From: Candidatus Bathyarchaeota archaeon
GTDB lineage: Archaea; Thermoproteota; Bathyarchaeia; Bathyarchaeales; WUQV01
Assembly: GCA_021158125.1 (NCBI GenBank)
Contig: JAGGVF010000015.1
Span: forward strand, 1 to 51,703
Direction: 5' to 3'
Length of the DNA: 51,703 nucleotides
In this document: positions 16,741 through 33,628 of the stretch, piece after piece
Numbering within the stretch: position 1 is the stretch's first letter
Layout of the letters: the number at the start of each line of letters is the position of its first letter
Position numbers and translations under genes: made by a program
The notes under the pieces: generated by a model
Told to the model about the DNA's origin: nothing
The model's database searches: none
Seen by the model: the letters and a program-made list of their open reading frames with translations, nothing else

Positions 16741-16812
16741 AGTTAACTCCGGTAGGATCCATTCTTTAATGACTGCCATTAAACACCGATCTCAAAAAGA
16801 TAAGATAGCATC

Positions 16813-17979
16813 CTAAAGTAAAGATTGCGGGTTTTGGAGGTATTCTGCAATTTTTCCCAAGAAGGTGGCAGCTAAAGCTCCATCTATGATTCTATGATCA
16901 AATGACAAGCTTAGAGTGACCATTGGCTTTACTCTAACTTGTCCATTAATTACGATTGGTTTCTCAGCTATTCTTCCCACTCCAAGAATCGCAACTTGCC
17001 CTGGAACAATCAAGGGGGTGAAAACATCCACTCCAAACATCCCTAGGTTTGTAATTGTGAAGGTACCGCCTGTCACTTCATTTATAAGAAGCTTGTTTTG
17101 CCTCGCCCTTTCAACCAAATCTTCAATAATTGAATTAATTTCTTTGATATCTTTCTTATCTGCATCACGAACCACTGGAACTATAAGTCCGTAATCTGTT
17201 GATACAGCTAATCCTATATTGATATCTTCTAATAGCCTAATTCGGTCTTCTTCTACGGTTGAGTTAAAAATAGGGCAGTCTCGTAGAGCCTTTGCCGCAG
17301 CCTTAACAAGTATGGCGTTATATGAAATTCGTATACCTTCTCTTTCAAAGTTTTCACGAAGTTTAATCATTACAGTAGCATCCACATCCATTGATATCGT
17401 TACATGCGGAATTGTGCGATGACTTAAGGCCATCCTATCGGCAATAGTTTTCCTGACTCCAGCTAAAGGCACAATTTTACCCTCTTTAGCTTTAAGCTCC
17501 TCGATGGCTTTCAAAACATCCTCCTTAACTATTCTCCCTTGTGGACCTGTACCTCTAATTTTTTCTATGTTAATGTTGTACTCTTGGGCAAGCTTCTTAG
17601 CTATTGGTGAAATTTTAATTCTCTCTGGTTTAACCTTCAATTCTTCTGTTGATGCTCTCTCAGCCTCCTTAAGTTCAAGTTCAGGCGGCATTCGCTTTTC
17701 TGCAATTGCTCTAATAGCCTCTTCAACTTTTGTTACGTCGTCAGAAGGCTCTAATATGACGGCGAGGGGTTCCCCTACGGGCACTTCTGCACCAGCGGGC
17801 GCTAATATTTTGTATAATACTCCCGAAGCTGGAGAAACGACTTCGTAAGTTACTTTTTGGGTCATTATATTTGCTATAGGTTCTCCTTCGCTCACAGTTT
17901 CTCCTTCTTTCTTTAGCCACTCAACAATTTCTCCGCTATCCATTGCTAAGTCTAGCTTAGGCATTATTACCGTTTTCAT
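16813..17979 (-). CDS. 2-oxoacid dehydrogenase E2, dihydrolipoamide acyltransferase
   Basis: Core of a 2-oxoacid dehydrogenase complex. Lipoyl domain at about residues 1-78 with the lipoylated Lys in IMTQKVTYEV; E3/E1-binding domain near 125-160 (ISPIAKKLAQEYNINIEKIRGTGPQG reads over two pieces); catalytic domain with the inner-core motif SFDHRIIDG, the active-site His, near residue 360. I choose ATG 17979, with AGGGCGG nine bases upstream and 13 bases after E1beta stops; TTG 18003 would overlap E1beta. A flexible Glu/Lys linker joins the first two domains. No E3 (dihydrolipoamide dehydrogenase) is found in the window. The acyl specificity (pyruvate, branched-chain, acetoin) cannot be fixed from sequence. 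Confidence 0.92.
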   Translation of the reverse strand: MKTVIMPKLDLAMDSGEIVEWLKKEGETVSEGEPIANIMTQKVTYEVVSPASGVLYKILAPAGAEVPVGEPLAVILEPSDDVTKVEEAIRAIAEKRMPPELELKEAERASTEELKVKPERIKISPIAKKLAQEYNINIEKIRGTGPQGRIVKEDVLKAIEELKAKEGKIVPLAGVRKTIADRMALSHRTIPHVTISMDVDATVMIKLRENFEREGIRISYNAILVKAAAKALRDCPIFNSTVEEDRIRLLEDINIGLAVSTDYGLIVPVVRDADKKDIKEINSIIEDLVERARQNKLLINEVTGGTFTITNLGMFGVDVFTPLIVPGQVAILGVGRIAEKPIVINGQVRVKPMVTLSLSFDHRIIDGALAATFLGKIAEYLQNPQSLL

Positions 17980-17992
17980 TTTCTGAACCGCC

Positions 17993-18985
17993 CTAACAGC
18001 CAAGCGTTTTCCTCACGGCTTCAATTACATCATCTTCAGTTGGTATTACAGCCTTTTCTAACGTTGGGGATACTGGAGCAGGAATAGGTGGTGCAGCGAT
18101 ACGGATGGGTGGAGCATCTAAATAATCAAAAACTTCTTCGACGATCATGCTTACTATTTCTGCTCCAACACCACACGTCTTAACACTGCTTTCAACAGTT
18201 ATTAACCGATTAGTCTTTTTGACCGATTCTATTATGATTTCCTTATCTAACGGGATCAACGTGCGAGGATCGATTACTTCTACACTTACTCCATCTCTTT
18301 CAAGTTTTTCAGCAACCGATAACGCCACTGGAACCATATTGGATATTGCAACGATGGTGAGGTCACGCCCTTCTTTCTTTACATCCGCCTTTCCAAGGGG
18401 TATTGTATACTCTTCCTCAGGCACCTCTCCCTTTGTTTTATAAAGGAGAAAATGCTCGAAAAAGATCACGGGTGAATCATCACGTATCGAGCTCTTTAAT
18501 AGCCCCTTCGCGTCATAGGGAGTCGAAGGAACAACTACTTTTAGGCCGGGAATGTTCACGAACCATGATATTGGAGCTTGGGAATGATCACTTCCTACAC
18601 CCCTTCCCTGCCCTATCATGGTTCTAATGACTAAAGGAACTTTCAATTGTCCGCCAGTAGAATATCTTAACTTTGTAGCGTTATTTACTATCTGGTTCAT
18701 ACAACACATCAAGAAATCCGCGTACATAACTTCAACTACTGGCCTTAAGCCGCTGATGGCCGCCCCTACCGCCGCTCCGACGAAGCCATCTTCAGAAATC
18801 GGAGTGTCTAGAACCCTCTCTGAACCGAATTTCTTCGCTAAATCGGCCGTAACCATAAAAACTCCGCCACGCCCGGAATATCCGTATCGAACATCCTCAC
18901 CCATAACTATGACGCTTTCATCCCTACGCATTTCTTCCTTTAATGCTTCGTTTAATGCTTCAACGAATGTTATTTCTCTATTCAT
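17993..18985 (-). CDS. 2-oxoacid dehydrogenase E1 beta subunit
   Basis: Beta subunit of the thiamin-diphosphate-dependent E1, 330 residues, full length. Residues 3-15 (REITFVEALNEAL) and VIVMGEDVRYGYSGRGGVF form the pyrimidine-binding start with the conserved Glu. GDSH-like GVGSDHSQAPISWFVNIPGLKV is near residue 130, and the transketolase C-terminal domain follows with VIDPRTLIPLDKE. GAGGTGATGGC provides the ribosome-binding site before ATG 18985. It starts nine bases after the E1alpha stop and is followed by E2, the usual alpha-beta-E2 order of pyruvate, acetoin or branched-chain complexes. Confidence 0.93.
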   Translation of the reverse strand: MNREITFVEALNEALKEEMRRDESVIVMGEDVRYGYSGRGGVFMVTADLAKKFGSERVLDTPISEDGFVGAAVGAAISGLRPVVEVMYADFLMCCMNQIVNNATKLRYSTGGQLKVPLVIRTMIGQGRGVGSDHSQAPISWFVNIPGLKVVVPSTPYDAKGLLKSSIRDDSPVIFFEHFLLYKTKGEVPEEEYTIPLGKADVKKEGRDLTIVAISNMVPVALSVAEKLERDGVSVEVIDPRTLIPLDKEIIIESVKKTNRLITVESSVKTCGVGAEIVSMIVEEVFDYLDAPPIRIAAPPIPAPVSPTLEKAVIPTEDDVIEAVRKTLGC

Positions 18986-18994
18986 GCCATCACC

Positions 18995-19951
18995 TCAAAA
19001 GACATACGCCGCTACATTTTCCGGGGATGGATAGGGACTTTCCTCGGCAAATTTTATGGCGTCCTCAACTTCGCGACTGGTTATCTCTCTTATCCTTTTC
19101 AAATCCTCTTCTGTTAGTATGCCTTCTTTTAATAGATAATCTTCAATTCTTCTAATTGGGCATTTTTTCTTCCACTCTTCTATTTCTTCCTTTGACCTAT
19201 AACCAGTTCCTGGATCAGTGGTACCGTGTCCCGCTAATCTATATGTTTTACATTCGAGTAGTGTAGGGCCTTTCCCCTCCCTAGCTCTTTGAACCGCTTC
19301 ACGCGCAGCTTCATAGACCGCTATCACATCATTTCCATCTACCACGACTCCAGGTATATTATATCCATGTGCTCTCCTGGAGATATCCTCTACCGATGTC
19401 GAGTATTTGACGCTTACAGAAATCGCGTACATATTGTTCTCACACACAAATATTACGGGTAAATTCCATATAGCGGCTAAGTTTAACGATTCATGAAAAT
19501 CACCTGTATTGGATGCTCCGTCGCCGAAGAAACATACTGCAACTTGATCGGTTCCGCGCAATTTAATAGATAATCCTGCCCCGACTGCCAGAGGCAAACC
19601 AGCTCCAACTATGGGACATGAATACATTAGACCAGATTCAACATCAGCCACTCTCATTGAGCCGCCCCTACCTTTGCAGCATCCAGTTTCTTTTCCCAGA
19701 ATTTCGGCTGCTAGTTTGTTAAGCGGAAGCCCCTTTGCAATCGCAATGCCATGACCACGATGAGTCCCAAAGACGTAATCATCCTTCCTCAGATGTTCAC
19801 AGACGCCCACAGCGACTGCTTCTTGACCTATGTAGAGATGCACCAATCCCGGAACAAGTCCCTTAGCATACTCTTCACCTATCTTTTCCTCAAAAAGCCT
19901 TATTTTCAGCATTTTTTTATACATTGAGATAATCTTTTCATACGAGTTCAT
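18995..19951 (-). CDS. 2-oxoacid dehydrogenase E1 alpha subunit
   Basis: Alpha subunit of E1, 318 residues. The ThDP motif GDGASNTGDFHESLNLAA, ending at VCENN, is clear near residues 142-171, and HRGHGIAIAKG near residue 65 carries the conserved His that contacts the cofactor. The phosphorylation-loop region YRLAGHGTTDPGTGYRSKEE matches the family. It is the first gene of the leftward unit E1alpha, E1beta, E2, lplA, nitroreductase. GGGGAT precedes ATG 19951, and AT-rich TTTAATTAATTC near 19980-19995 may be the TATA element. Acetoin or branched-chain keto-acid specificity is possible. Confidence 0.93.
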   Translation of the reverse strand: MNSYEKIISMYKKMLKIRLFEEKIGEEYAKGLVPGLVHLYIGQEAVAVGVCEHLRKDDYVFGTHRGHGIAIAKGLPLNKLAAEILGKETGCCKGRGGSMRVADVESGLMYSCPIVGAGLPLAVGAGLSIKLRGTDQVAVCFFGDGASNTGDFHESLNLAAIWNLPVIFVCENNMYAISVSVKYSTSVEDISRRAHGYNIPGVVVDGNDVIAVYEAAREAVQRAREGKGPTLLECKTYRLAGHGTTDPGTGYRSKEEIEEWKKKCPIRRIEDYLLKEGILTEEDLKRIREITSREVEDAIKFAEESPYPSPENVAAYVF

Positions 19952-20073: not shown

Positions 20074-21099
20074 GTGAAAGCCGCTCGTTTTATTGGTCCT
20101 AATACGCCTTTAAGAATAGATGATGTACCTATCCCGGAGCCAAAACCTGATGAAGTTTTAGTAAAAGTTAAAGCGGTTGGACTCTGTGGGTCGGATGTTC
20201 ATATCTACCGAGGCAGAACAACCGTTGGTAAAATACCTATTATATTAGGTCATGAAATTGCTGGGATAATAGAAAAAGTTGGTAGTAACGTTACAGATTT
20301 TCAAACTGGTGACAGAGTTTGCATAGATGGTATAATCTTTTGCGGAAAATGTAAAAATTGTAAGGCGGGTAGAGATAATATCTGCGAAAACAGAAAATTG
20401 TACGGAATTCATGAGAACGGAGGGTTTGCCGAATATATAAGCGTGAAATCGGTTAACTGTATTAAATTGCCGGATAATATACCTTTCGAATATGGAGCCA
20501 TATTGACCGATGCTGTTGCAACTCCTTTTCATTCGATCACGAGAGCCGAAATATTTCCAAACGAAACTGTAGTTATTTATGGTGTGGGTGGTTTGGGAAT
20601 AAATGCTGTTCAGATAGTTGCCAAGCTGAGAGGGGCCACGGTAATCGCTGTAGATGTTGACGGAAAAAAACTTGAGATAGCAAAGAAAATTGGAGCTGCC
20701 ACTGCAATAAATGCGAAAAACGAAGATCCAGTTAAAAAAGTAATGGAAATTACAGACGGTAAAGGTGCAGATGTAGCTATCGAATCTGCAGGCAAAGTCA
20801 ACACCACAAAGAATGCTTTTGATAGTGTCCGAGCGGGAGGAAAGGTTATTTTGCAAGGTTTATGCGATGCCCCAGTTTGTTATGATACAAGACTGCTTGT
20901 CAGGAAAGAAATCAGCGTTTTAGCCTCATACGGATATTGCAAATCAGATATTGAAACATTAGTAAACTTAGTGAGTAAAGGAAAAATCGATCTAACCTAC
21001 TCAATCACACATAAAATGCCTTTAGATGAAATTAATAAGGCAATAGAAATTTTGGAAAAAAATATAGGCAGCCCATTTCGCATTATTATATTTCCATAA
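20074..21099 (+). CDS. Zinc-dependent medium-chain alcohol/polyol dehydrogenase
   Basis: A 341-residue MDR-family enzyme of the threonine/sorbitol dehydrogenase type. It has the catalytic-zinc Cys in GLCGSDVHIYRG near residue 37, GHEIAGIIEKVG near residue 61, four structural-zinc cysteines in CGKCKNCKAGRDNIC near 90-105, and the Rossmann GVGGLGINAVQ near residue 170, followed by an acidic VDVD that favours NAD. It starts with GTG 20074. The island context suggests oxidation of a polyol or sugar rather than ethanol. It converges with the binding-protein gene and diverges from E1alpha. Confidence 0.88.
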   Translation: MKAARFIGPNTPLRIDDVPIPEPKPDEVLVKVKAVGLCGSDVHIYRGRTTVGKIPIILGHEIAGIIEKVGSNVTDFQTGDRVCIDGIIFCGKCKNCKAGRDNICENRKLYGIHENGGFAEYISVKSVNCIKLPDNIPFEYGAILTDAVATPFHSITRAEIFPNETVVIYGVGGLGINAVQIVAKLRGATVIAVDVDGKKLEIAKKIGAATAINAKNEDPVKKVMEITDGKGADVAIESAGKVNTTKNAFDSVRAGGKVILQGLCDAPVCYDTRLLVRKEISVLASYGYCKSDIETLVNLVSKGKIDLTYSITHKMPLDEINKAIEILEKNIGSPFRIIIFP

Positions 21100-21132: not shown

Positions 21133-22506
21133 TTATGGTGCAGCGTATGGGCTTTCAGGTGGTAATGGAACTACTGGTTCTTTGAGCGCGTATTTTTCTG
21201 GATATACACAGTAAAGTGTTCTATTAAACCACTGATACATTACTGTTCTAGCCCTTATATTTTGTCCACCGTTATAAGTGACGCCCCATGGCGACGTCCA
21301 GTTAACTCCCACCCCTTCTTGGAATTTACAGCCATGAGTTGCACAGGGTATTGCGCCGTCAGGAATATCTGTTTCCTCAGCTGCTTTCCTGATAGTTTCA
21401 GGGGTAACTTCGCCGTATTTTTCTATAGCTCTAGGCAAAATATCCGTTAATAACGGCATCATGTGAGCGAATCCCATTCCAGCGTGAGTTAACGGATCTC
21501 TGTTAAATACTGCCCGGTATCTTGCTATGAACAATTCTGTAAGTTCTCTAGCTTCAGGTGTCGATGCTTCCCAGTTTATAGCTGCTGGTGAGACGCCTGG
21601 GTCTATGTTAAATATGTAATTTATATCGTCACCTATGGCTTCGGCTGTTGCAGGTACTCCGTGGCCGCCTCCATGCCCTATAAACGCCTTACATTTTAGA
21701 CCAAGTTCCTTGGCTTGTTTGAGGAAGAGTATGGCATCTGAAACGTAACTTGTCATCCATATAACATCAGGATTAGCATCTTTAACCTTTAATATCAAAC
21801 TTGATAGGTCTGTAGCAGTATGAGAATATCCCTCATCGATTACTACTTGAAAGCCGTATTCTTCAGCAAATTTTCTGTTACTTGCTGCGCAACTGGTTCC
21901 ATAAGGACCATCCTCGTATAGTATAGCTACTTTCAGCTCCGAGGGTTGTACACCAAGTTTTGGGCATATGACATTATAAGTGAATTCACCAGCTAACATT
22001 CCAAAAGCCCCAGCTGGAGTCTGCGGTCTCAATATCCACTTGTAACCACGCTGGGTTATCACATCCGCGACTTCTCCATTAGACCAGTCGACTACACCGT
22101 ATTGTTCACATACCTCGCTTACAGCCATACAAATTGCACTTGAGTAGTGACCAACGATACATTGAACTCCTTCGACAGTAATTAACCTTTCAGCTTCGGA
22201 TGCAGCAACTGTTGGATCACTTTTAGCGTCAGCAACCACGTAATGGATGGGATATTTACCCAGAACTCCCCCTCTCTCGTTAATTATTTCTATAGCCGCC
22301 TTTGTTCCGAAAAATTGCTCGTTTCCCAGAGGCGCCATAGGTCCTGTTAAGGGATAGATTACACCGAGTTTGATCTCGATTTCTTTTGCTCCTGGTTGGT
22401 AAAAGATTATCATGATCCCAGCCACTACGCCTACGATTATGATTATGACTGCTATGACCGCCGCTTGAACTTTTGTTATTGCGGATTTAGACATCAGATT
22501 TTTCAT
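21133..22506 (-). CDS. Liv-type ABC transporter substrate-binding protein
   Basis: Periplasmic-type binding protein (Leu/Ile/Val family, peptide ligand domain), 457 residues. Residues 12-32 form an N-terminal membrane anchor (KVQAAVIAVIIIIVGVVAGI), as is common in archaea that tether binding proteins. The mature start IKLGVIYPLTGPMAPLGNEQ and the repeated Rossmann-like lobes, with VAASEAERLITVEGVQCIVG, match the family. Family members bind branched-chain amino acids, amides, aromatic acids and other small molecules. It is the last gene of the operon SDR, cupin, LivH, LivM, LivG, LivF, binding protein, so its ligand is probably what the island degrades. Confidence 0.88.
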   Translation of the reverse strand: MKNLMSKSAITKVQAAVIAVIIIIVGVVAGIMIIFYQPGAKEIEIKLGVIYPLTGPMAPLGNEQFFGTKAAIEIINERGGVLGKYPIHYVVADAKSDPTVAASEAERLITVEGVQCIVGHYSSAICMAVSEVCEQYGVVDWSNGEVADVITQRGYKWILRPQTPAGAFGMLAGEFTYNVICPKLGVQPSELKVAILYEDGPYGTSCAASNRKFAEEYGFQVVIDEGYSHTATDLSSLILKVKDANPDVIWMTSYVSDAILFLKQAKELGLKCKAFIGHGGGHGVPATAEAIGDDINYIFNIDPGVSPAAINWEASTPEARELTELFIARYRAVFNRDPLTHAGMGFAHMMPLLTDILPRAIEKYGEVTPETIRKAAEETDIPDGAIPCATHGCKFQEGVGVNWTSPWGVTYNGGQNIRARTVMYQWFNRTLYCVYPEKYALKEPVVPLPPESPYAAP

Positions 22507-22572
22507 AATCCCTCACAACTTTCAGTATTACACCTTTCTATACTTAAAATTTACTGTAAACATTCGAGAAGA

Positions 22573-23274
22573 TTATAAGTAAGTCTTCTTTACAAGCTCG
22601 TTTTGCAATAGCTCCTTTCCACTTCCTTCCAGAACTATTTTACCTCGTTCAATTAAATAACCTCTGTCAGCAAATTCTAATGCCTTTTTCACGTATTGTT
22701 CTACAACAAGAACAGTTATCCCTTGATTTGGAAGCTCTTCAAGTAAGCCAAAAAGTTTGCTCACCAAAGTGGGCATTAATCCAAGGGATAGTTCGTCTAT
22801 GATAATTAACTTAGGTAAGGACATCAACCCTCTTGCAATAGATAGCATTCTCTGCTCTCCGCCGCTCAGAGTGCCAGCCATTTGATTTTCCCTTTTTTTT
22901 AGAATTGGGAAAAGTTTGTAAACCAGCTTTAGTGTATTTTCCTCTTCAGCACGTGCCTCTGAAGTGCACGCACCCAGCTTAAGGTTTTCTAAAACACTCA
23001 TTCTGGGAAAAATCCTACCGCCTTCTGGAACTAGAACTAACCCTTTCTTAACAACAGTATGAGCTGGTAAACCATCAATTCTTTCTCCTCTAAAGATTAT
23101 TGAACCGTGAACTGGTCGTTTCAAACCGCAAATAGTTTTCAACAAAGTAGTTTTTCCGGCCCCATTAGGTCCTATTATAGCTACCTTTTCTTTTTCGTCT
23201 ATTTCAAGCGATATGCCCCATATCACCCTTACCTTGTCATAAGTAACAACTAAATCTTTTACTTCAAGCAACAT
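22573..23274 (-). CDS. livF: Liv-type ABC transporter ATPase, LivF-like
   Basis: A 233-residue ABC ATPase. Walker A GPNGAGKTT is near residue 35, the ABC signature is LSGGEQRM, and the Walker B strand is PKLIIIDELSLGLMP. LSLGL after Walker B is typical of LivF. I choose ATG 23274 (MLLEVKDL), which has GGTGAGG four bases away; GTG 23283 is also possible. It overlaps the end of the LivG-like gene by 11 bases. It energises import with LivG. Confidence 0.9.
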   Translation of the reverse strand: MLLEVKDLVVTYDKVRVIWGISLEIDEKEKVAIIGPNGAGKTTLLKTICGLKRPVHGSIIFRGERIDGLPAHTVVKKGLVLVPEGGRIFPRMSVLENLKLGACTSEARAEEENTLKLVYKLFPILKKRENQMAGTLSGGEQRMLSIARGLMSLPKLIIIDELSLGLMPTLVSKLFGLLEELPNQGITVLVVEQYVKKALEFADRGYLIERGKIVLEGSGKELLQNELVKKTYL

Positions 23275-23986
23275 ATTCCTCACCTAAGTAAGCCCTAATT
23301 ACCTCTTTATTTTTAGCGATCTCCTTTGGTTTCCCTTCTGCGATCAATTCTCCATAGTTTAATACAACTATTCTTTCACAAATTGACATGACGAATTTCA
23401 TAACGTGTTCAACAATAACAACCGTGATGCCCTGATCATTTATCTTTTTTATTACCGAAAAAACTTCTTCCATTTCTGCTGGTCTAAGCCCCGCCACAAC
23501 CTCATCCAGTAATAACACTTCGGGCTCCGTGGCAAGGGCTCTTGTCAACTCTAATCTTTTATGTTCAATAATATTAAGATCTCTAGCTAATACATTTCTT
23601 TTGGGGAATAGTCCTGTAAGCTTTAGCATTTCAAATGCCTTTTCTCTCGCTTCCTCGAAGCTTTTGCTTTTAAAAAGCGATCCAATCAACACATTTTCAA
23701 AAACAGTTAATTCTTTGAAAGGTCTGGTCAGCTGAAACGTTCTAGATATTCCCTTTTCGCATATTTTGTATGGGGGAAGTCCCGTTATTTCCTCTCCTTT
23801 GAATATTACAGATCCCGAATCAGGTCGGTAGTAACCGCTAATTACATTAAAAAGTGTGGTTTTCCCAGCTCCATTAGGACCTATTATTCCTAAGATTTCA
23901 CCAGAATTAATTTCTAAATCTACATCTTTGAGAGCACATACGCCCCCAAACGTTTTAGTTACTCTCTTCACTTCAAGTATGGGCAT
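23264..23986 (-). CDS. livG: Liv-type ABC transporter ATPase, LivG-like
   Basis: A 240-residue ABC ATPase with Walker A GPNGAGKTTLFNVISGYY near residue 35, RTFQLTRPFKELTVFENVLIG (LivG hallmark), and LLLDEVVAGLRPAEMEEV as Walker B. The ABC signature is unusual: where LSxGxx is expected there is ARDLNIIEHKRLELTRAL. This degenerate form is common in LivG-like proteins (usually LSYGxQRRLEIARAL), but here the LSYG is largely lost. It starts three bases after LivM stops. Confidence 0.88.
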   Translation of the reverse strand: MPILEVKRVTKTFGGVCALKDVDLEINSGEILGIIGPNGAGKTTLFNVISGYYRPDSGSVIFKGEEITGLPPYKICEKGISRTFQLTRPFKELTVFENVLIGSLFKSKSFEEAREKAFEMLKLTGLFPKRNVLARDLNIIEHKRLELTRALATEPEVLLLDEVVAGLRPAEMEEVFSVIKKINDQGITVVIVEHVMKFVMSICERIVVLNYGELIAEGKPKEIAKNKEVIRAYLGEEYVA

Positions 23987-23989
23987 ATG

Positions 23990-24961
23990 TTACTCCTCCT
24001 CTTTTCTGATGAAATATTTTTTAATGATTCCCGTAAGCCCTTTTGGCATGAAGAGCAGTACAACGATTAGAAGAACTCCGTATATCAAAAGATGCAAACC
24101 TGCATAGGTTCCTCCAAGATGCACCCTAAGCATTTCCGATATTGGCATCAACACTACTGCACCAACTGTGGGGCCGATTATGTCGTACATTCCTCCGAAA
24201 ATCGCGATTAAGGCTATCTGTATAGATAAATCTAAGCTTAAAACTGTTCCGGGAGTTATACACCTATAATACTGGAGCCAGAATGCCCCCCCTATAGCCG
24301 TCAAGAAGGCACTAAGCCATAGCGCTACCATCTTTTCTTTGAGAACGTTGATGCCTAATGCAGCTGCAGCGTCTTCATCTTCCCGAATTGCAATAAGTTT
24401 GTATCTGAATCTTTTCATGCGATATGTAATGAAAAGCGATAGGAGCCAAAGGAAAATTGCAATGTAACAGAAGTATCTTTTATCATTAAACTGGAAATTT
24501 AGTGGTGAAAAGCCTAAATAGCGCAAATATAAACCAAGGGCTCCGCCAGTTATATCTCTATAGTAGAGACAGAGATCCCTTAAGATTTCTGCAAATGCTA
24601 TGGTTGCAAGTGCGAAATAAGTTCCTCTCACACCGAACTTGAAGCATGGATATCCGAGAATTGTAGCTAGGCCTATTGATGCAAGTGCTGCAAGTAACAT
24701 TCCTATCCATGGTGACAAACCGTACCATGTGAACATAAAGTAAGTAAGGTAAGCCCCTATGCCGACAAATGCTGTGTGACCAAGTGAGAGCGTTCCTGCA
24801 AACCCGCCTAATATATTCCAACATGTAGAAAAGAATGCGAAGAGATATATTATGGTAAATATATGGATAATGTATGGGGATACTGGGAGAAGAGGTAATC
24901 CAAAAATGACTATTGCAGCTAGAATCAAAGGCAGGTGTTTTTTGTCTATGCTTATTTTCAT
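23990..24961 (-). CDS. livM: Liv-type ABC transporter permease, LivM-like
   Basis: A 323-residue integral membrane protein with about nine hydrophobic helices. The family motif GYPCFKFGVRGTYFALATIAFAE begins near residue 103. The cytoplasmic coupling-loop segment IAIREDEDAAAALGINVLKEK is near residue 195, and FGGMYDIIGPTVGAVVL lies toward the C-terminus. All are features of LivM. It is located between LivH and LivG in the normal operon order. Confidence 0.9.
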   Translation of the reverse strand: MKISIDKKHLPLILAAIVIFGLPLLPVSPYIIHIFTIIYLFAFFSTCWNILGGFAGTLSLGHTAFVGIGAYLTYFMFTWYGLSPWIGMLLAALASIGLATILGYPCFKFGVRGTYFALATIAFAEILRDLCLYYRDITGGALGLYLRYLGFSPLNFQFNDKRYFCYIAIFLWLLSLFITYRMKRFRYKLIAIREDEDAAAALGINVLKEKMVALWLSAFLTAIGGAFWLQYYRCITPGTVLSLDLSIQIALIAIFGGMYDIIGPTVGAVVLMPISEMLRVHLGGTYAGLHLLIYGVLLIVVLLFMPKGLTGIIKKYFIRKEEE

Positions 24962-24962
24962 T

Positions 24963-25826
24963 TTAGAGTTTCCTCCTTCCCAGAAGCCCTTCAGGCCTAG
25001 CTATTAGGGTAATTAAGAATATCACAAATGCTATGGCTCTTCCTAATTCAACACTAGTCAGGACTCCGGCTACTGCTTCTACTATACCAAGAATGAAAGA
25101 ACCTACAAGTGCTCCCTCGAAGCTTCCTAAACCCCCAAATACTATAATAATCCAAGACATAACACCGAACGATGTCCCAGCTAAGGGAAAAACATAATAA
25201 ACTGGTGCTAACAGAGCTGACGCAATCCCAACTAGGGTACCCGCTAAAGCAAAGGTTAATACGTAAACCCTCTTAACGTCTATGCCCATCAATTCTGCGG
25301 CTTCTCTATCTTGAGCCACAGCACGTATGTTTCTACCAATTCTCGTTTTGTGCAGGAACAGGTACAACAGTATGGAAATTGGCACTGCCACTATTAACGG
25401 TATGACTCTCTCTAAACTTATTGTCATAATTCCGACTGTAATGTTATGTATTTCTATCGGAATTCCCCTATAATCAGCCTTCCAAAGAAGTAGAGCCAAA
25501 TTCTGTAGGAAAATGGAAAGCCCTGCGGTGATCAGAAGCTGGTTTAACTCTGGGGCTTCAATAACTGGTTCTATAAGTAGTTTCTCCGTTGCAACAGCTA
25601 CTAAAATAACCACCGGAACCGTTAGCACTACAGATAGATAGGGGTTTATTCCAAATAATACAAAAAGCCAATAAGCCGTATACATACCTATCATTAAGAA
25701 TTCACCGTGTGCAAAGTTAACAATCTTCATAACTCCGTAGATTATATTAAGACCAACAGCAACTAATGCGTAAACACCACCTAAAATTAAGCCGTTTATA
25801 ATGGCAAGTATTATGAGTTCTATCAT
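24963..25826 (-). CDS. livH: Liv-type ABC transporter permease, LivH-like
   Basis: A 287-residue membrane permease. The first helices give NGLILGGVYALVAVGLNIIYG, then MKIVNFAHGEFLMIGMYTAYW, the hallmark LivH sequence. The coupling loop RAVAQDREAAELMGIDVKRV is near residue 180, and VFGGLGSFEGALVGSFILG follows. One base separates its stop from the LivM start. It is the first transporter gene after the SDR and cupin genes. Confidence 0.92.
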   Translation of the reverse strand: MIELIILAIINGLILGGVYALVAVGLNIIYGVMKIVNFAHGEFLMIGMYTAYWLFVLFGINPYLSVVLTVPVVILVAVATEKLLIEPVIEAPELNQLLITAGLSIFLQNLALLLWKADYRGIPIEIHNITVGIMTISLERVIPLIVAVPISILLYLFLHKTRIGRNIRAVAQDREAAELMGIDVKRVYVLTFALAGTLVGIASALLAPVYYVFPLAGTSFGVMSWIIIVFGGLGSFEGALVGSFILGIVEAVAGVLTSVELGRAIAFVIFLITLIARPEGLLGRRKL

Positions 25827-26282: not shown

Positions 26283-27215
26283 TCAAACAGGTGGTAATCC
26301 TGCACGAGATCGAATTATGTTTATGTGTTCTCTAATGCCTTCCTCCATAGTATAGGAGGGGGTATAACCTAACTCTTCCTTGGCTCTTGTTATGTCAAAC
26401 TCCATTTGCCACCCAAGTTCTCCAGGCTCAACATGGATGACTGCGTCTGGAATAAGCTTTTTAATGTACTCAGCAGCTTCGTAGATAGTGCGAAGTTCTC
26501 CGCATGTATTGAATATCCTATGTTTGGTTTGCTTTACATTACAAGCTAATATTATAGCCTTTACAGCGTCTTTAACGTATTGCCAGTCAACTTTTTGGTT
26601 TCCATAAGACACCTTCACTGGTCTTCCAAGGGCCGCACCCTCTATAAGCTCACTTGCAAACGCTGTTTGACCTCTCGCTCTTCCAGGACCGTAAACAACT
26701 GTAAATCTTAAGCCAATGTTATCCAGCCCGTACTTCTCGTAGTAGTACTCTCCCATAAATTCATTTAACACCTTACAAGCACCATATACATTAAGAGGCA
26801 TTTTAGGGGCATCTTCGTTAACTGGCTTGTGACCGTAGTATTCGGCACGACCATAAACCGAGATGGAACTGGCCCACACTACCCTTTTAACATCCATTAT
26901 TCTCGCAATTTCAAAGATGTTGGTAGTGCCCTCACAATTGACCTTGATGGCCTTTAATGGTTTTTCTTGCGACTGAGGGATAAGTAAATAAGCTAAATGT
27001 ACTATGTACTCAACACCATACTTTTTTACGCATTCCAAGAGATCCGTAACGTCGAGTACATCCCCTCGGATCACTTTCACTTTATCTTTAACATCGCTTA
27101 TTGCCTCATAATTTGGTTGATAATCATACGCTATGACTTCTTCCCCTCTATTCACTAATTCCCTTATGAGGTGAGAGCCGATGAATCCTGTGCCACCTGT
27201 AACCAGATATGACAT
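26283..27215 (-). CDS. NAD-dependent epimerase/dehydratase-family SDR
   Basis: An extended SDR of 310 residues with the nucleotide motif TGGTGFIGSHL at residues 6-16, an acidic D30 after strand 2 (NAD preference), the catalytic Ser in ASSISVYG near residue 119, and the active-site YGACK near residue 145. The family includes UDP-glucose 4-epimerase, threonine dehydrogenase and sugar-acid dehydrogenases such as D-erythronate dehydrogenase DenD. As the first gene of a transporter operon it is more likely to act on the imported compound than on a nucleotide sugar. A TATA-like CTCTTTATAAATT (27261-27272) lies about 50 bases upstream; the remaining 27273-27435 interval shows nothing definite. Confidence 0.87.
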   Translation of the reverse strand: MSYLVTGGTGFIGSHLIRELVNRGEEVIAYDYQPNYEAISDVKDKVKVIRGDVLDVTDLLECVKKYGVEYIVHLAYLLIPQSQEKPLKAIKVNCEGTTNIFEIARIMDVKRVVWASSISVYGRAEYYGHKPVNEDAPKMPLNVYGACKVLNEFMGEYYYEKYGLDNIGLRFTVVYGPGRARGQTAFASELIEGAALGRPVKVSYGNQKVDWQYVKDAVKAIILACNVKQTKHRIFNTCGELRTIYEAAEYIKKLIPDAVIHVEPGELGWQMEFDITRAKEELGYTPSYTMEEGIREHINIIRSRAGLPPV

Positions 27216-27435: not shown

Positions 27436-29289
27436 TTATCGCAAATTTATTGCAAACTCAAGGCCAAGTTCTTTCAGCTTATCCTTTCTTGGTTTTCCTT
27501 CTTCATCTAGCCCACGTATCCTATAATATTCATTGAGCATAGGTTCTAATTCAACTATCTGTCCCTTTGCAGTCCCGTCTGGTACTGGCTCCTTCAGGAA
27601 TCTTTCCGGCAATGTGTCATCTTCACGTCCGCTACCCATCTTCACGTTGAAAGCTCTTTTCAGCATCCATATTCTTTCCCCAGCTTTCATCAAGTCATCA
27701 AGTTTCGTCTCCCATCCCGTTACTGCCGTATAGACTTTCGCAAGTGTTGTTAACGGCATTCTGCCAAAGAAGACCACAAATTTGCATATTCCTAGTGCAT
27801 CAATCATGCAACAAGCATCCTGCATGATCTTAACCACTCTAGCTTTCCCATCTATTGAAAATCCGTCTAATTGTTTATCAAACCCCAAGTCTGGAATGAG
27901 TATTCCCCTTGATGGAAGGAATGAGTAACCTCTTAGGTGACATGCACCCCTCTCCGAAACCGCGTATTGTAATCCCATTTCTTTAAATCTGTATGGACTA
28001 TGCATTGGAAGTTCAAGACCCCTGACATGCATAGCCAACCTCTCGGCTCCCTTCCCTATTTTTTCTGCGGCTCTCTTGGAGCCTTCGCTTAATGTAGCAC
28101 CGAACCCTTCTTTTTTACCGATAAGCTCAACTAGCTTAACTATGACTTTCGGATCTCCCCAGTTTAACTCAATGCCGCCAGTTTCCTCCTTTGTTATTAT
28201 ACCTTTTTCATAGCACTCCATGGCGAAGGCTATGGTAGCGCCAGCCGATATTGTATCTATACCTAATCTGTTGCATATGTCGTTCGCTTTCGCTATAGAT
28301 TCTAGGTTGTCATTCATACAAAGGGAACCAAAAGCAGCTACTGTTTCATATTCGGGGCCATAACCTTTTAAGGGAGCATATGGCCCTTCCTTTATTTCAA
28401 CATACCTGCCACAGCCTACATGGCATGCAAAGCAAGCTCTTCTTCCGATAAGTATTGTCTTAGCCATTTTAATTCCTGTTATATTATCTGCTCCCGGAAA
28501 AGTCCCTTTTGTCCAATTTTTGATAGGAAGGTTCCCCATCTCTTCAAAGGCTGCAACTCCGCCGGCTGTACCGTAATCACTTAAGCCTTTAAGTTTATCC
28601 TTTGTGTTTTCTATTATTTGCTCTCTAAGTTCTTTAAGTGTTTCAGAATCCTCAACTTTTATGTTTCTGGTTCCCATGCAAGCTATTGCTTTTAACTTCT
28701 TCGAGCCCATTACGGCGCCTAAACCGCATCGCCCGGCGGCCCTTCCGTTGTCGCTTATGATAGCTGCCAACCTAACAAGTTTTTCGCCAGCAGGACCGAT
28801 GCAAGCTACTGCGGCCTTTTTCTCATTTAACTCTTCTTTTACAGCGTTACACGCGTCAAATGTTTCCATTCCCCACATTCCGTTTGCGCTCTTGATTTCG
28901 ACTTCATCGTCATGAATCCATAGGTAAACTGGTTTCTCCGCTTTTCCTTCTATTATAAGCATGTCATAACCAGCTTTCTTTAACTCAATTCCACAGTTTG
29001 CTGAAAAAATTGATTCTCCCCATATGCCCGTCAACGGAGACCTTGAAACCAGTATGGATTTACATCCCGCGGGCACAGTAGAGCCTGTCAACGGACCGGT
29101 AGCAAATATAAGCTTGTTATCAGGGTCGAATGGGTCTGTATTTACATCCATTTCTTCCAACATAATCTTAGCCGCAATCCCCAGCCCTCCAATTAATTTT
29201 TTAGCTAATGAAAGGTCTAGATCTTGCTTGGAAATCTTGTTCTGGGACAAGTCGACTCTGAGAATTTTGCCAACATAACCCCCTACCAT
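27436..29289 (-). CDS. aor: Aldehyde ferredoxin oxidoreductase (tungsten enzyme)
   Basis: AOR family enzymes oxidise aldehydes to acids with ferredoxin, using a tungstopterin cofactor. The 617-residue length is typical. GGYVGKILRVDLS opens the N-terminal domain. The [4Fe-4S] ligands are visible in CFACHVGCGRY near residue 290 and in the C-terminal DACCMIDALGICKF. RGLELPMHSPYRF and AVSERGACHLRG near residues 440-470 are pterin-binding segments. ATG 29289 follows GGGAGG by seven bases and replaces a longer reading from 29346. It diverges from the cupin, RuBisCO-like, kinase operon. Which AOR subfamily (AOR, FOR, GOR, WOR) it belongs to is not clear. Confidence 0.9.
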   Translation of the reverse strand: MVGGYVGKILRVDLSQNKISKQDLDLSLAKKLIGGLGIAAKIMLEEMDVNTDPFDPDNKLIFATGPLTGSTVPAGCKSILVSRSPLTGIWGESIFSANCGIELKKAGYDMLIIEGKAEKPVYLWIHDDEVEIKSANGMWGMETFDACNAVKEELNEKKAAVACIGPAGEKLVRLAAIISDNGRAAGRCGLGAVMGSKKLKAIACMGTRNIKVEDSETLKELREQIIENTKDKLKGLSDYGTAGGVAAFEEMGNLPIKNWTKGTFPGADNITGIKMAKTILIGRRACFACHVGCGRYVEIKEGPYAPLKGYGPEYETVAAFGSLCMNDNLESIAKANDICNRLGIDTISAGATIAFAMECYEKGIITKEETGGIELNWGDPKVIVKLVELIGKKEGFGATLSEGSKRAAEKIGKGAERLAMHVRGLELPMHSPYRFKEMGLQYAVSERGACHLRGYSFLPSRGILIPDLGFDKQLDGFSIDGKARVVKIMQDACCMIDALGICKFVVFFGRMPLTTLAKVYTAVTGWETKLDDLMKAGERIWMLKRAFNVKMGSGREDDTLPERFLKEPVPDGTAKGQIVELEPMLNEYYRIRGLDEEGKPRKDKLKELGLEFAINLR

Positions 29290-29432
29290 CTTGAAACCTC
29301 CCTTGTAACTGTAAACAAGCATAGCACGTATTTTAAATTTACTCATAAAGTTTGAAAGCTTGAGAAAGCAAGTGGTAAAACCTTTTTATATCTGAACTGA
29401 AAACTTTTAATCTCTAAAAATGAGGTGAGATC
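29290..29432. promoter_or_regulatory. Divergent promoter region between aor and the RuBisCO-like operon
   Basis: In 143 bases there are two opposed TATA-like elements: CTTTTTATATCTG (about 29378-29390) reading right toward the cupin gene, and AAATTTAAAATACG (about 29327-29341 on the minus strand) reading left toward aor. GAGGTGAG lies just before ATG 29433 and GGGAGG just before ATG 29289. Shared control of both units is likely. Confidence 0.5.
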
Positions 29433-29813
29433 ATGATCGTCGTAAAATTTGATGAACCGCAAGAATACCATGCCCCAAACCAGGAAACCAGACGAGTCAG
29501 AATCTTCATTGACGAAGAAAAAATCGGGAAAAAGGACATAGTGATGGGCATGAGCATATATGGACCTGGAATGGAGGCCCCATTACACTCCCACGAAGGT
29601 TCCGAAACAATGTTCATAGTGCATGGCAAAGGAGAATTCGGAACGGAAGACAAGGTTGTGCAGGTTGGACCAGGTGACGTACTTTATTTCGAACCAGGCG
29701 AGAAACATTTCCTTAGAAATATAGGAAGTCAGACGCTCGAGTTTATATTTATATACTCCAAACCCGGTGACGAAAAGGTCATAAAGGAGAAATGGATTCC
29801 ACTGAAAAAATAG
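29433..29813 (+). CDS. Small cupin, first gene of the RuBisCO-like/kinase operon
   Basis: A 126-residue cupin with a full metal site: motif 1 is PLHSHEGSETMFIVHGKGEF (two His and Glu near residues 50-57) and motif 2 is GPGDVLYFEPGEKHFLRNIG with the second-motif His near residue 90. Single-domain cupins of this size include sugar isomerases and dioxygenase-like proteins. It is 18 bases upstream of the RuBisCO-like gene, so it very probably works on the same pathway. A keto-sugar isomerase activity is my preferred guess, without direct evidence. Confidence 0.82.
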   Translation: MIVVKFDEPQEYHAPNQETRRVRIFIDEEKIGKKDIVMGMSIYGPGMEAPLHSHEGSETMFIVHGKGEFGTEDKVVQVGPGDVLYFEPGEKHFLRNIGSQTLEFIFIYSKPGDEKVIKEKWIPLKK

Positions 29814-29831
29814 TTTAAGCTGGGAAAGAAA

Positions 29832-31145
29832 GTGTCTGCTGAAGAGTTTACTTACGACCCATATGCTTTTTCTATTTTTGAAGGAGTTGACGTGGACAAT
29901 CATATAATTGCCATTTACTCACTAGAGGTTGAGCCTGGAAGAGATTTCCTTAAAATTGCTGAAGGATTAGCATCCGAGGCGACAACAGGTACTTGGATAA
30001 AAGTTCCTACTGAAACGAGCGAGATAAGGAAAAAATATCAGGCTAAGGTGCTTGGCACATATGAAATTCCGTCAGAAGGGTACCAAAGAGTAATGATAGC
30101 AGTCGCACATCCCATTGAAAACTTTGGTCCAAGTATGCCAATGTCTATGGTTTTAGCAGGAATTGCCGGAAACTTATTTTCGGTAACAGCGGCTCGCGTA
30201 AAGCTTACTGACGTATTTTTACCAAAGAATTTAGTAAAAGAGTTTAAGGGACCAAAATTCGGAATTCCAGGTCTAAGAAACATGTTAAACATACATGACA
30301 GACCTTTAGTTGGAGCCATTCTCAAACCTAAAACTGGCATGTCTCCAAAGGAAGTCGCAGAAGTATGCTACAAAGCGGCATTAGGCGGGGCGGATTTAAT
30401 AAAGGATGACGAGATGCAGTCAGATCCAAGTTATTGCCCACGCATCGAGAGGCTTCATGCAGTTATGGAAGCACTTGATAAAGCACAGGAAGAAACAGGC
30501 AAAAAATGCCTCTATGCACTTAATATAACGGACAGGAGCGATAAAATGCTTGAAATTGCCGAGAAGGCGGTAGAAGAAGGCGCTAACTGTCTTCTGATCA
30601 ACTATATCACATCTGGATATGAGAATTTAAGAATGGTAGCTGAGGATCCAAGCGTATCCGTCCCTTTGTTAGCACATCCGACAATGGCTAGGGCACTTGT
30701 AAGACCAGAAAACATGGGTATAACATATCATACAGTTAAAAAACTCGTTAGATTATGCGGAGCCGATATAACAATACTGTCCTCTGCTTACGGGAAAATG
30801 TATCAACCAATTAGGGAGTATTTCTGGTCTGTGCATGCTCTCAGAGATCCATTTTATGGAATTAAGTCCACATTACCTGCTCTCAGCGGAGGAGTTTACC
30901 CAGGTCTAGCTACTCAGCATGTCAAAGATGTCGGGATAGATATAATGATGATAGCAGGAGGTGGAGTGTTAGGTCATCCTATGGGCGTAACTGCAGGCGT
31001 TAAAGCAATGGTCGCTGCCGTTGAGGCAGCCGCTAAAGGCATACCTTTAGTTGAAGCAGCAAAAACGAGTCAAGAGTTAAAGGTAGCCATAGACACTTGG
31101 GGCGTATACGAAAAACCGAAGGAATATATCTTTAAACCGAAGTAA
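29832..31145 (+). CDS. RuBisCO-like protein (form IV-type), probable phospho-keto-acid enzyme
   Basis: RuBisCO large-subunit superfamily, 437 residues, GTG start. Kept residues: E49, T54 and W55 in SEATTGTW; N114 in IAGNLF; K165 and K167 in ILKPKTG; the carbamylated-Lys and metal cluster K191, D193, E194 in IKDDEMQ; H282; K322 in the loop-6 segment YGKMYQ; S352-G-G; and the G376-G377 phosphate loop. Lost: the phosphate-binding Arg after H282 is Pro283, the following His is Ala286, and the His before loop 6 (H327 in spinach) is a hydrophobic residue. This argues against ribulose-bisphosphate carboxylation. Known RuBisCO-like proteins include MtnW and decarboxylases or transcarboxylases of phosphorylated keto-acids in apionate catabolism. 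The downstream FGGY kinase suggests a phosphorylated substrate here. Confidence 0.88.
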   Translation: MSAEEFTYDPYAFSIFEGVDVDNHIIAIYSLEVEPGRDFLKIAEGLASEATTGTWIKVPTETSEIRKKYQAKVLGTYEIPSEGYQRVMIAVAHPIENFGPSMPMSMVLAGIAGNLFSVTAARVKLTDVFLPKNLVKEFKGPKFGIPGLRNMLNIHDRPLVGAILKPKTGMSPKEVAEVCYKAALGGADLIKDDEMQSDPSYCPRIERLHAVMEALDKAQEETGKKCLYALNITDRSDKMLEIAEKAVEEGANCLLINYITSGYENLRMVAEDPSVSVPLLAHPTMARALVRPENMGITYHTVKKLVRLCGADITILSSAYGKMYQPIREYFWSVHALRDPFYGIKSTLPALSGGVYPGLATQHVKDVGIDIMMIAGGGVLGHPMGVTAGVKAMVAAVEAAAKGIPLVEAAKTSQELKVAIDTWGVYEKPKEYIFKPK

Positions 31146-31148
31146 AAC

Positions 31149-31167
31149 TTTTTCCCCCTTTTTTCCC
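31149..31167 (+). terminator. Possible T/C-rich partial terminator between the RLP and kinase genes
   Basis: CTTTTTCCCCCTTTTTTCCC lies in the 36-base gap just after the RuBisCO-like gene. Oligo-T tracts terminate archaeal RNA polymerase, so this may reduce transcription into the kinase gene rather than stop it. Confidence 0.3.
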
Positions 31168-31181
31168 AAAATGGTGACAAA

Positions 31182-32714
31182 ATGCCGTCTTATTTTATGG
31201 GTGTGGATATCGGAACTTCTGCAGTAAAGGCAGTTATAACTAATGCTGAAGGCAAGATTTATGGTTCATGTTCCGTAGCTAATGATGTCAATTTTCTGAA
31301 GCCAGGATGGGTTGAGCAGAATCCTGAGATTCATTGGTGGAAAAATTTTATATTCGCTGTCAAGGGATGCTTAAAGAAATCTCGTATTCCTCCGAACCAG
31401 ATTGCAGGACTTGGTATAAGCGGCTTATCTGTTAACCTAACTGCTTTAGATAAGAACGGTAAGGTGATACGCCCGGCAATTCTCTACATGGATACGCGAG
31501 CTTTAAAGGAAATAGAATGGTTGAAAGAGAACGTAGGCAATCAGACTTTCCTAGAGATCAACGGAAATCCTATAAGCCATCGTATGTTAGTTCCAAAAAT
31601 TCTCTGGTTCAAGAAACATGAACCCGAAAATTACAATAAGACATGGAAAATACTCATTTCTTCGCAAGGTTACGTTATCTATAAGTTATGTGGGCAAATC
31701 ACAGCGGATTACTATACTGCAGACATGGTGGGCTTGTTCAGCTACAGAGAAAACAAATGGAGCAATAAACTTTCAGAACTCATCGGAATAGACATCGATA
31801 AACTGCCCCAAGCATTTCCATCTTACGAGGTAGTTGGTGAAATATCAACCATATCAGCGAAACAAGTAGGGTTAAAAGCAGGAACCCCTGTTGTTGCGGG
31901 GTCTTGTGACGCAAATATTTCAACTCTTAGTTCTGGTGTAGTATATCCTGGAGAGGCCATGCTATCCTATGGAAGCGTTGGAGCAAGTTACATTTGTTTG
32001 GATAAGCCCAAGGTTCACCCCGGACTTTTCTTTGGCCATTACGTGAAACCTAATAGCTGGGTGTCCGTCATAGCTATGCAATGTGCCGGAGCTATACTGA
32101 AGTGGTTTTACAGAGAGTTCGGCCACATAGAAAAAGAATTTAGTGAGAAATTAGGTTTAAACCCGTATCAAATTCTTGATATGGAAGCAGAAAAAATCCC
32201 ACCGGGATCTAATGGTTTGATAGTACTACCTTACTTTATGGGGGAGAGATCTCCGATTATGGATCCTAACGCAAAAGGCGTGATATTTGGATTAAATCTC
32301 TTCCATAGTAGGGCGCATGTATATCGCGCATTCCTTGAAGCTTTTGGATATGGATTGTCACATCACTTGGATGTTCTGAACGAAATTGGGGTTAAAATTA
32401 AGAGGTGGATAGCGGTTAACGGCGGTGCTAAAAGCAAAATTTGGAGGCAAATAGTATCTGATATAACTGGAATTCCTCAATACTACACTCCGGGGCATCC
32501 AGGCGCCCCTCTTGGAGATGCTTTCCTAGCCGCTATAGGTACGAAAGTTATACGAGATTGGAGCAAAATAAAAGAGTGGGTTCATCTTAAAGATGAAACA
32601 CTTCCAAACATGGAAAAGCATAGATTATACAGAAAATTATACACAATATATAAACGTTTATATGAACATCTAAAGCAGGATATGTGGGATCTTTCAAATA
32701 TTTGTAATATATGA
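31182..32714 (+). CDS. FGGY-family carbohydrate kinase
   Basis: A sugar kinase of the xylulokinase/gluconokinase group, 510 residues. GVDIGTSAVKA at residues 7-17 is the ATP phosphate 1 motif, RPAILYMDTRA near residue 97 contributes to substrate binding, GSCDANIS has the catalytic Asp243, and GERSPIMDPNAKGVIFGLN (residues 353 on) is the FGGY signature region. NGGAKSKIWRQIVSDITG near residue 420 is the adenosine motif. GGTGA precedes ATG 31182. The substrate is unknown. Its operon with the RuBisCO-like protein suggests that it phosphorylates a keto-sugar or keto-acid which that enzyme then converts. Confidence 0.9.
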   Translation: MPSYFMGVDIGTSAVKAVITNAEGKIYGSCSVANDVNFLKPGWVEQNPEIHWWKNFIFAVKGCLKKSRIPPNQIAGLGISGLSVNLTALDKNGKVIRPAILYMDTRALKEIEWLKENVGNQTFLEINGNPISHRMLVPKILWFKKHEPENYNKTWKILISSQGYVIYKLCGQITADYYTADMVGLFSYRENKWSNKLSELIGIDIDKLPQAFPSYEVVGEISTISAKQVGLKAGTPVVAGSCDANISTLSSGVVYPGEAMLSYGSVGASYICLDKPKVHPGLFFGHYVKPNSWVSVIAMQCAGAILKWFYREFGHIEKEFSEKLGLNPYQILDMEAEKIPPGSNGLIVLPYFMGERSPIMDPNAKGVIFGLNLFHSRAHVYRAFLEAFGYGLSHHLDVLNEIGVKIKRWIAVNGGAKSKIWRQIVSDITGIPQYYTPGHPGAPLGDAFLAAIGTKVIRDWSKIKEWVHLKDETLPNMEKHRLYRKLYTIYKRLYEHLKQDMWDLSNICNI

Positions 32715-33207: not shown

Positions 33208-33628
33208 ATGAGAATAAGCCTAGACGGGATAATGAGGCTTTGGTGGCTGAGTTCTTCAAAATCTGAGATAGAAGCTAGGACGGCAGTGTTGAAAGTGATT
33301 GAGCTGCTGAAAAGTAGAGGGATAAAGGTTGGAAAACTTAGCATTTCTGTTAGGAATGTTGTTGCTTTGGCAGATTTTGGAAGTCAAATAGATCTGATAA
33401 AACTGTGGGAAAGGGCAGGAGCTACTGCTTCAAAGATCATTTACGAGCCTGAACAGTTTCCTTCAGCGGCGGTATACAGAATGGAAAATTCCGCATGTAA
33501 CCTTCGTAATATTCCCGAATGGCAAGGTTATATGTTGCGGAGCAAAGAAAACGAGGGAGATTCATCAAGCCGTCGAGAAGCTTAAAGGTTAGCTGGAAGA
33601 GAAAAACATCATTAAGGCTACTATTTAG
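33208..33628 (+). pseudogene. Broken TATA-binding-protein paralogue
   Basis: A frame from 33208 contains SEIEARTAVLKVIELLKSRG, IKVGKLSISVRNVVALADFG, SQIDL and IIYEPEQFPSAAVYRME. These are the end of TBP repeat 1 and most of repeat 2, with the YEPEQFP-x-x-VYR DNA-binding stirrup. After about 33490 the next frame continues PHVTFVIFPNGKVICCGAKK and IHQAVEKLKG, the expected C-terminal half, then TAG and LEEKNIIKATI. Thus there is one frameshift, one stop, and a missing first repeat. It is not functional as a two-repeat TBP. Its 3' end overlaps the convergent ParB-like gene by eight bases. Confidence 0.8.

Follow-up and report, generated by a model that had tools for sequence, protein, structure and literature searches.

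To our knowledge, reactions have been assigned for only a handful of RuBisCO-like families. Among the RuBisCO-like proteins (RLPs) with a described role are the 2,3-diketo-5-methylthiopentyl-1-phosphate enolase MtnW (or YkrW) and the apionate-type RLPs (OiaX and relatives), whose genes are followed by a kinase gene in catabolic operons with a transporter. DeepYkr RLPs act on a singly phosphorylated substrate next to a cupin in the methylthioadenosine (MTA)-isoprenoid shunt of Rhodospirillum rubrum and Rhodopseudomonas palustris (PMC5893883); in R. palustris the RLP and cupin genes (RPA2169-RPA2170) adjoin, and their products convert 5-methylthioribulose 1-phosphate onward (PMC5893883). Here we describe an operon from a Candidatus Bathyarchaeota archaeon (assembly GCA_021158125.1, contig JAGGVF010000015.1; the window is the whole stretch of 51,703 nt that was analysed), in which an RLP is encoded between a cupin and an FGGY carbohydrate kinase. 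Its RLP, accompanied by a partner kinase, belongs to a clade that is a real, rare and new branch of form IV. The operon and the region upstream of it comprise:

29347-29432, no strand: divergent promoter region between an aldehyde ferredoxin oxidoreductase (AFOR) gene and the cupin gene, by inspection
29433-29813, + strand: cupin (126 aa), Cupin_2 above the Pfam cut-off, metal-binding type
29832-31145, + strand: form IV RLP (437 aa, GTG start), RuBisCO_large N and C above the Pfam cut-off
31182-32714, + strand: FGGY carbohydrate kinase (510 aa), FGGY_N and FGGY_C above the Pfam cut-offs

All three genes are on the + strand, with gaps of 18 nt (cupin to RLP) and 36 nt (RLP to kinase), and the initial annotation had drawn this operon with exact coordinates. 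The operon start is separated by 86 nt from the divergent AFOR gene, and a TATA-like TTTTTATAT was identified by inspection at about 29383-29391, i.e., ~40 nt upstream of the cupin ATG. The RLP is the sole PF00016 match in the 1.37-Mb genome (98% complete) and the kinase the sole FGGY match detected there; since each is single-copy, their adjacency is not a by-product of many copies. The T/C-rich tract that fills the RLP-kinase gap (31146-31181) could serve as an archaeal terminator or attenuator, and a truncated TATA-binding-protein-like open reading frame (33208-33585; 125 aa, with one partial repeat of that protein) is located 3' of the kinase.

None of the curated NCBIfam cut-offs was reached by the window RLP, its best-scoring family being PRK09549 (MtnW type; 310.6 bits vs. 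a cut-off of 409), with lower scores for rubisco_III (TIGR03326; 301.6 vs. 497), MtnW (TIGR03332; 256.6 vs. 513.6) and OiaX (225.4 vs. 700). An IQ-TREE phylogeny, in which R. palustris was represented by its Photo-clade RLP2 only (2qyg), united the window RLP with RLPs from three genomes of the same class (G022, G023 and G024; 60-67% identity) in one clade (100/100), neighboured by a group of MtnW and uncharacterised RLPs from Elusimicrobia, Firmicutes, Asgard archaea and Thermoproteota (97/97). Both the apionate-type RLPs and the form I-III enzymes fell outside these groups. In approximately unbiased (AU) tests, joining the window clade to form I-III (p = 9e-6) or to MtnW alone (p = 0.001) was rejected, while joining it to the apionate type, which lies outside in the best tree, was only marginally rejected (p = 0.047). 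Judged by its sequence, the window RLP is neither a form III RuBisCO nor MtnW, and is probably not of the apionate type. Two phylum-level matches (G263 and G539; 44-45% identity) were set aside, their neighbours being unrelated and the G539 neighbourhood resembling the form III type. Within the G024 RLP an in-frame TAG (L071:8960-8962, - strand) was found where the window RLP has Lys, for which a pseudogene, a sequencing error and read-through are candidate explanations.

The active site was checked by aligning 70 homologues, among them solved RLPs and enzymes of forms I, II and III. The window RLP retains 17 of the 20 residues considered, i.e., K165 (spinach K175), K167 (K177), K191 (K201), D193 (D203), E194 (E204), H282 (H294) and K322 (K334), as well as, in the spinach numbering used from here on, E60, T65, W66, N123, S379, G380, G381 and G403-405. 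The three changes (R295P, H298A and H327I) are all on the side of the second phosphate, and the alignment bore out the initial reading of which catalytic residues had been kept (the carbamate Lys, both metal ligands, K175 and the loop-6 Lys) and which lost. As far as the alignment tells, the first-phosphate (P1) and metal/enolisation residues are kept, and the second-phosphate (P2) side is erased as in MtnW. Since these P2-side losses are common to MtnW, whose substrate has one phosphate, the residue pattern suggests a singly phosphorylated substrate for the window RLP as well, with this phosphate probably sitting in the P1 pocket. The AlphaFold (AF2) model of the protein (pLDDT 85) had as its best PDB match an MtnW with bound 2,3-diketohexane 1-phosphate (2oem; TM 0.87/0.93), and its RuBisCO fold with substitutions at catalytic and ligand residues places the window RLP in form IV in the broad sense.

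MtnW has in common with the window RLP this fold, the carbamate Lys, the metal ligands, a His-Pro in place of His-Arg295 and the loss of His298 and His327. In contrast, MtnW has Lys for N123 (in all rows of the alignment), Gly for E60, Val, Met or Cys for K177 and Ser for K334, all four of which are kept in the window RLP, and the latter has no methionine-salvage neighbours. The Lys at the N123 position is presumably the base in MtnW. The sister set of RLPs from Thorarchaeota, Lokiarchaeia, Thermoproteota and Firmicutes (38-45% identity) shares the P2-side losses, but differs in having Cys for K177 and Met, Ser, Pro, Cys or Thr at position 295.

The retained carbamate Lys, metal ligands, N123 and loop-6 Lys would also fit a catalytic RuBisCO of the archaeal adenosine monophosphate pathway, and form III RuBisCO does share the superfamily and most catalytic residues with the window RLP. 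However, the absence of Arg295, His298 and His327 (i.e., of the P2 side), the separate clade, the AU rejection of a sister placement to form I-III and the shortfall against the rubisco_III cut-off make this explanation scarcely credible. Its neighbours differ as well: no ribose-1,5-bisphosphate-isomerase-like gene is located nearby, whereas one was found at 15 of the 21 form III loci. The tree thus upheld the initial annotation in keeping the protein apart from form III.

The kinase is xylulokinase-like yet remained under every curated cut-off (XylB TIGR01312, 355.9 vs. 380 bits), and carries GLSVN at the substrate motif instead of QMH and its catalytic Asp within GSCDAN. In G023 and G024, an FGGY gene with 57-58% identity to the window kinase is located directly 3' of the RLP gene. 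The linkage of all three genes that the initial annotation had anticipated in related genomes thus held for RLP and kinase in two of the three close relatives, but not for the cupin, which is present in the same genomes yet unlinked. An FGGY gene was located within 8 kb of the RLP gene at 3/4 loci of the window clade, 2/4 of the sister Thermoproteota, 2/2 of the Thorarchaeota, 2/9 of the Firmicutes and 0/12 of the Lokiarchaeia, and at none of the 21 form III loci of the same class, with contig ends shortening some loci in these counts. For the window clade, sister Thermoproteota and Thorarchaeota combined (7/10 vs. 0/21 form III loci), Fisher's test gave p = 5e-5, or 0.002 with close relatives collapsed, values that are rough because the loci share ancestry and the groups were chosen after inspection of the data.

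A kinase tree resolved two FGGY clades, one with the kinases of the window, G023 and G024 and another with those of G135, G116 and the Thorarchaeota together with that of G065. Kinases of the second clade adjoin related RLPs in G135 and G116, and are encoded near RLPs in the Thorarchaeota metagenome-assembled genomes (MAGs). Since each of two RLP clades has a different FGGY clade as its partner, the RLP-FGGY pairing probably had at least two origins, and such repeated origin argues for a functional tie. Within the open-licence literature, no paper linking 'RuBisCO-like protein' with FGGY was found. A chance neighbourhood, in which RLP and kinase have unrelated roles, would fit the G022 RLP that lacks an FGGY partner and the location of the cupin elsewhere in relatives, but is very unlikely given that the genome's single FGGY gene adjoins its single RLP gene, that G023 and G024 also have the two side by side, that another FGGY clade accompanies RLPs in G135, G116 and the Thorarchaeota MAGs, and that none of the 21 form III loci has an FGGY gene.

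A saccharopine-dehydrogenase-like gene occurs together with FGGY and RLP genes in Thermoproteota and Thorarchaeota (L080:5611-9767, L081, L038 and L045), forming a second RLP-FGGY system. A small protein encoded beside the RLP/FGGY genes in G022-G024 (L070:6074-6784) was rejected as an extra partner, being present in RLP-less relatives and unlinked in the window genome.

In the initial annotation, the kinase was thought to feed the RLP in a manner analogous to apionate catabolism. The tie of a non-RuBisCO form IV protein to an FGGY kinase stood, but the analogy with an apionate-type phospho-3-keto-acid decarboxylase was not supported. According to that analogy, the FGGY kinase would phosphorylate a 3-keto acid made by the cupin and a nearby short-chain dehydrogenase/reductase (SDR), and the RLP would decarboxylate or transcarboxylate the product, in a non-homologous counterpart of the dehydrogenase, isomerase, kinase and decarboxylase route. 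The CO2/enediolate residues E60, N123, K175, K177, K201, H294 and K334 are indeed retained, an MR/MLE-type protein (a fold frequent in sugar-acid catabolism) is encoded in the G022 cluster, and the SDR weakly matches D-erythronate dehydrogenase, although it has many comparably weak matches, and this one did not serve to assign a substrate. Nevertheless, the sampled apionate-type RLPs form a separate clade (100/100), keep Arg295 and mostly His327 where the window RLP has the His-Pro pattern of MtnW, and have Phe in place of Trp66; the OiaX score is far below its cut-off. Moreover, eight annotated neighbourhoods of apionate-type RLPs on plasmids were read (two of them haloarchaeal), and in all eight a DUF1537 four-carbon-acid-sugar kinase gene is located directly 3' of the RLP gene and an FGGY gene in none. 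This explanation is thus rather unlikely, and the window system may resemble the apionate system in a general sense, as a kinase with an RLP, rather than being a member of it; the substrate of the window RLP may still be a keto acid. The Natrinema and Haloterrigena plasmids (L084 and L088) carry clusters of an apionate-type RLP and a DUF1537 kinase with tripartite ATP-independent periplasmic (TRAP) transporters, and of the Natrinema RLP only the C-terminal part is annotated.

Upstream of the operon, the window contains a number of further catabolic and transport genes:

27436-29346, - strand: AFOR family; probable pathway member
26283-27215, - strand: SDR of the NAD-dependent epimerase/dehydratase family; orthologues at 61-64% identity
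25834-26286, - strand: second cupin-domain protein (150 aa); 4-nt overlap with the SDR gene
21133-25826, - strand: LivK, LivF, LivG, LivM and LivH of a branched-chain-type ATP-binding cassette transporter; orthologues at 49-56% in G023 and G024
20074-21099, + strand: zinc-dependent alcohol dehydrogenase family, threonine/sorbitol dehydrogenase-like by family searches
16813-19951, - strand: E1 alpha, E1 beta and E2 of the 2-oxoacid/acetoin-dehydrogenase type; E1 alpha/beta orthologues at 52-62%
15997-16779, - strand: lipoate-protein ligase-like protein next to E2, named by inspection
14335-15384, + strand: Ldh_2-family dehydrogenase (malate/lactate/sulfolactate type); orthologues at 49% in the G023 and G024 cluster

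Cupin (E<1e-30) and SDR (E<1e-90) each occur in 4 of 257 genomes of the class, the identical set that holds the RLP clade, the cupin having orthologues (49-55% identity; ligands H52, H54, E58 and H92 invariant) in exactly the three other genomes, where the SDR orthologue is divergent from it. No cupin match was obtained at E 1e-8 in the RLP neighbourhoods, whole-genome searches placing the orthologues at another locus. In G023 and G024, this locus away from the RLP holds the divergent cupin/SDR pair and then, ordered as in the window, LivHMGFK and E1 alpha/beta; Ldh_2 is encoded nearby, and an iron-containing alcohol dehydrogenase (ADH) is present as well. In G022, cupin and SDR share a short contig with an MR/MLE-type fragment. 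An AFOR orthologue (58%) adjoins another FGGY gene in G023, and AFOR genes are located at most 2 kb from RLP genes in L064, L076, L080 and L081. The AF2 model of the cupin was weak (pLDDT 72), and its solved relatives (DddK, TM1459 and oxalate decarboxylase) were too distant to assign a function. In G410, which gave no RLP match, a more weakly related SDR (46%) is encoded on a contig of 3.5 kb.

The adjacency of RLP and metal cupin also recalls the RPA2169-RPA2170 pair, and could indicate salvage of MTA or 5-deoxyadenosine, in which the RLP would be a 5-methylthioribulose-1-phosphate (or 5-deoxyribulose-1-phosphate) isomerase with the cupin as its partner. The single-phosphate-type active site would fit this, as would the MtnA that is encoded elsewhere in the window genome (above cut-off). 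However, the neighbouring genes encode a transporter and carbon-catabolic enzymes, with no mtn gene recognised among them, the cupin is away from the RLP in relatives, and the route needs no FGGY kinase; moreover, archaea generally do not use 1-deoxyxylulose 5-phosphate for isoprenoids. We consider this salvage role distinctly unlikely. Compared by gene context, the window shares RLP-cupin adjacency and a putative single-phosphate substrate with the DeepYkr systems, but differs in its archaeal host, its FGGY kinase and its lack of mtn neighbours.

What we observed is how the genes are arranged, which clade the RLP falls in, which residues it has lost, that its linkage to a kinase recurs and that cupin, SDR and RLP co-occur; from this we infer the substrates of a pathway, the position of the phosphate, the outcome of the reaction and the order of the steps. 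With about an even chance of being right, we propose that the operon forms the middle of an undescribed catabolic pathway, in which the kinase makes a ketose or keto-acid monophosphate that the RLP enolises and probably isomerises. The SDR and other dehydrogenases would convert an imported polyol, sugar or sugar acid into a ketose or keto acid, which the FGGY kinase would phosphorylate, probably at the terminus adjoining the ketone. The RLP would hold the single phosphate in its P1 site and enolise the substrate with Mg2+ on carbamylated K191 (window numbering), after which reprotonation of the enediolate would give an isomeric ketose phosphate in an isomerase- or epimerase-type reaction without net CO2 chemistry. 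As a metal enzyme, the cupin would take a substrate or product of this route, and oxidation of the short products would fall to AFOR and the E1/E2 complex.

Several observations weigh against this proposal. All clade members except the window RLP carry S379G and G381A, and these changes on the phosphate side in close relatives make anchoring in P1 uncertain; the G022 RLP additionally has N123E. A whole-genome search detected no FGGY gene in G022 despite its RLP. Furthermore, G022-G024 have the RLP at one locus and the SDR/cupin/Liv set at another, so that their assignment to one pathway depends in part on co-occurrence within just two genera; as these are in different families, the co-occurrence amounts to two independent points, and a single block transfer of the flanking set, unrelated to the RLP, could produce it.

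Phosphate expulsion is a known side reaction of RuBisCO. In an alternative route, the kinase would yield a ketose 1-phosphate, from which the RLP would, after enolisation, expel the phosphate to give a 1-deoxy-2,3-diketose, allowing glycolysis-free sugar degradation with E1/E2 and AFOR. An acetoin-like reduction product of this diketose would be cleaved by E1/E2 into acetyl-CoA and an aldehyde, and the latter oxidised by AFOR. If true, this would account for the E1/E2 genes near RLPs in the window set and in G027, but we regard it as a long shot. The G027 cluster (L077:2227-14301) encodes a very divergent RLP (K334Y, N123C and R295K) with two FGGY kinases, a class II aldolase, a fused E1, an E2, an ADP-dependent sugar kinase and a class II fructose-bisphosphate-type aldolase.

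Turning to the sister set, the Firmicutes RLPs differ from the window RLP in being neighboured by SorC regulators (9/9), galactitol-type phosphotransferase system (PTS) EIIC (3/9) and class II aldolases (2/9), and also by ADH, a setting consistent with ketose-phosphate catabolism. At L033, L036, L041 and L052, the RLPs share what look like galactitol-type PTS operons with a class II aldolase, an ADH and SorC, and are likely ketose-phosphate isomerases or epimerases. Moorella RLP relatives have been proposed to act on sugars (PMC7325909).

A number of other RuBisCO homologues were encountered. Those at L057-L062, from Methanomassiliicoccales and other Euryarchaeota (near 8.0-9.25 kb in L057, L058, L059 and L062, 3.7-5.0 kb in L060 and 0.65-1.9 kb in L061), keep every checked residue for ribulose 1,5-bisphosphate and are all six located directly 3' of a ribose-1,5-bisphosphate-isomerase-like gene; the one scanned (L057) was under the form III cut-off (392 vs. 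497 bits), and the six are possibly an unannotated RuBisCO group. The RLPs of G027 and G028 (L076:8566-9942 and L078:8345-9718) form their own clade, in which Arg295, His327 and K334 are kept and K177 is changed to Asn, and the L076 RLP has Tyr at 298. G022 and G023 hold three different RuBisCO homologues each and G024 two, including in G022 and G023 a second RLP type (L068:3834-5111 and L069:8812-10233) with K177N, S379A and G380A and with Arg295 and His327 kept.

RuBisCO-like families mark how RuBisCO chemistry arose and diversified, and the window branch stands between form III RuBisCO and MtnW, with nearly all enolisation and CO2-handling residues kept and the second phosphate site lost. 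Its dedicated kinase in the same operon offers a direct experimental way to the substrate. The branch points to a catabolic pathway, as yet unassigned, among uncultured archaea, and is a caution against labelling genes of this kind as methionine salvage or carbon fixation.

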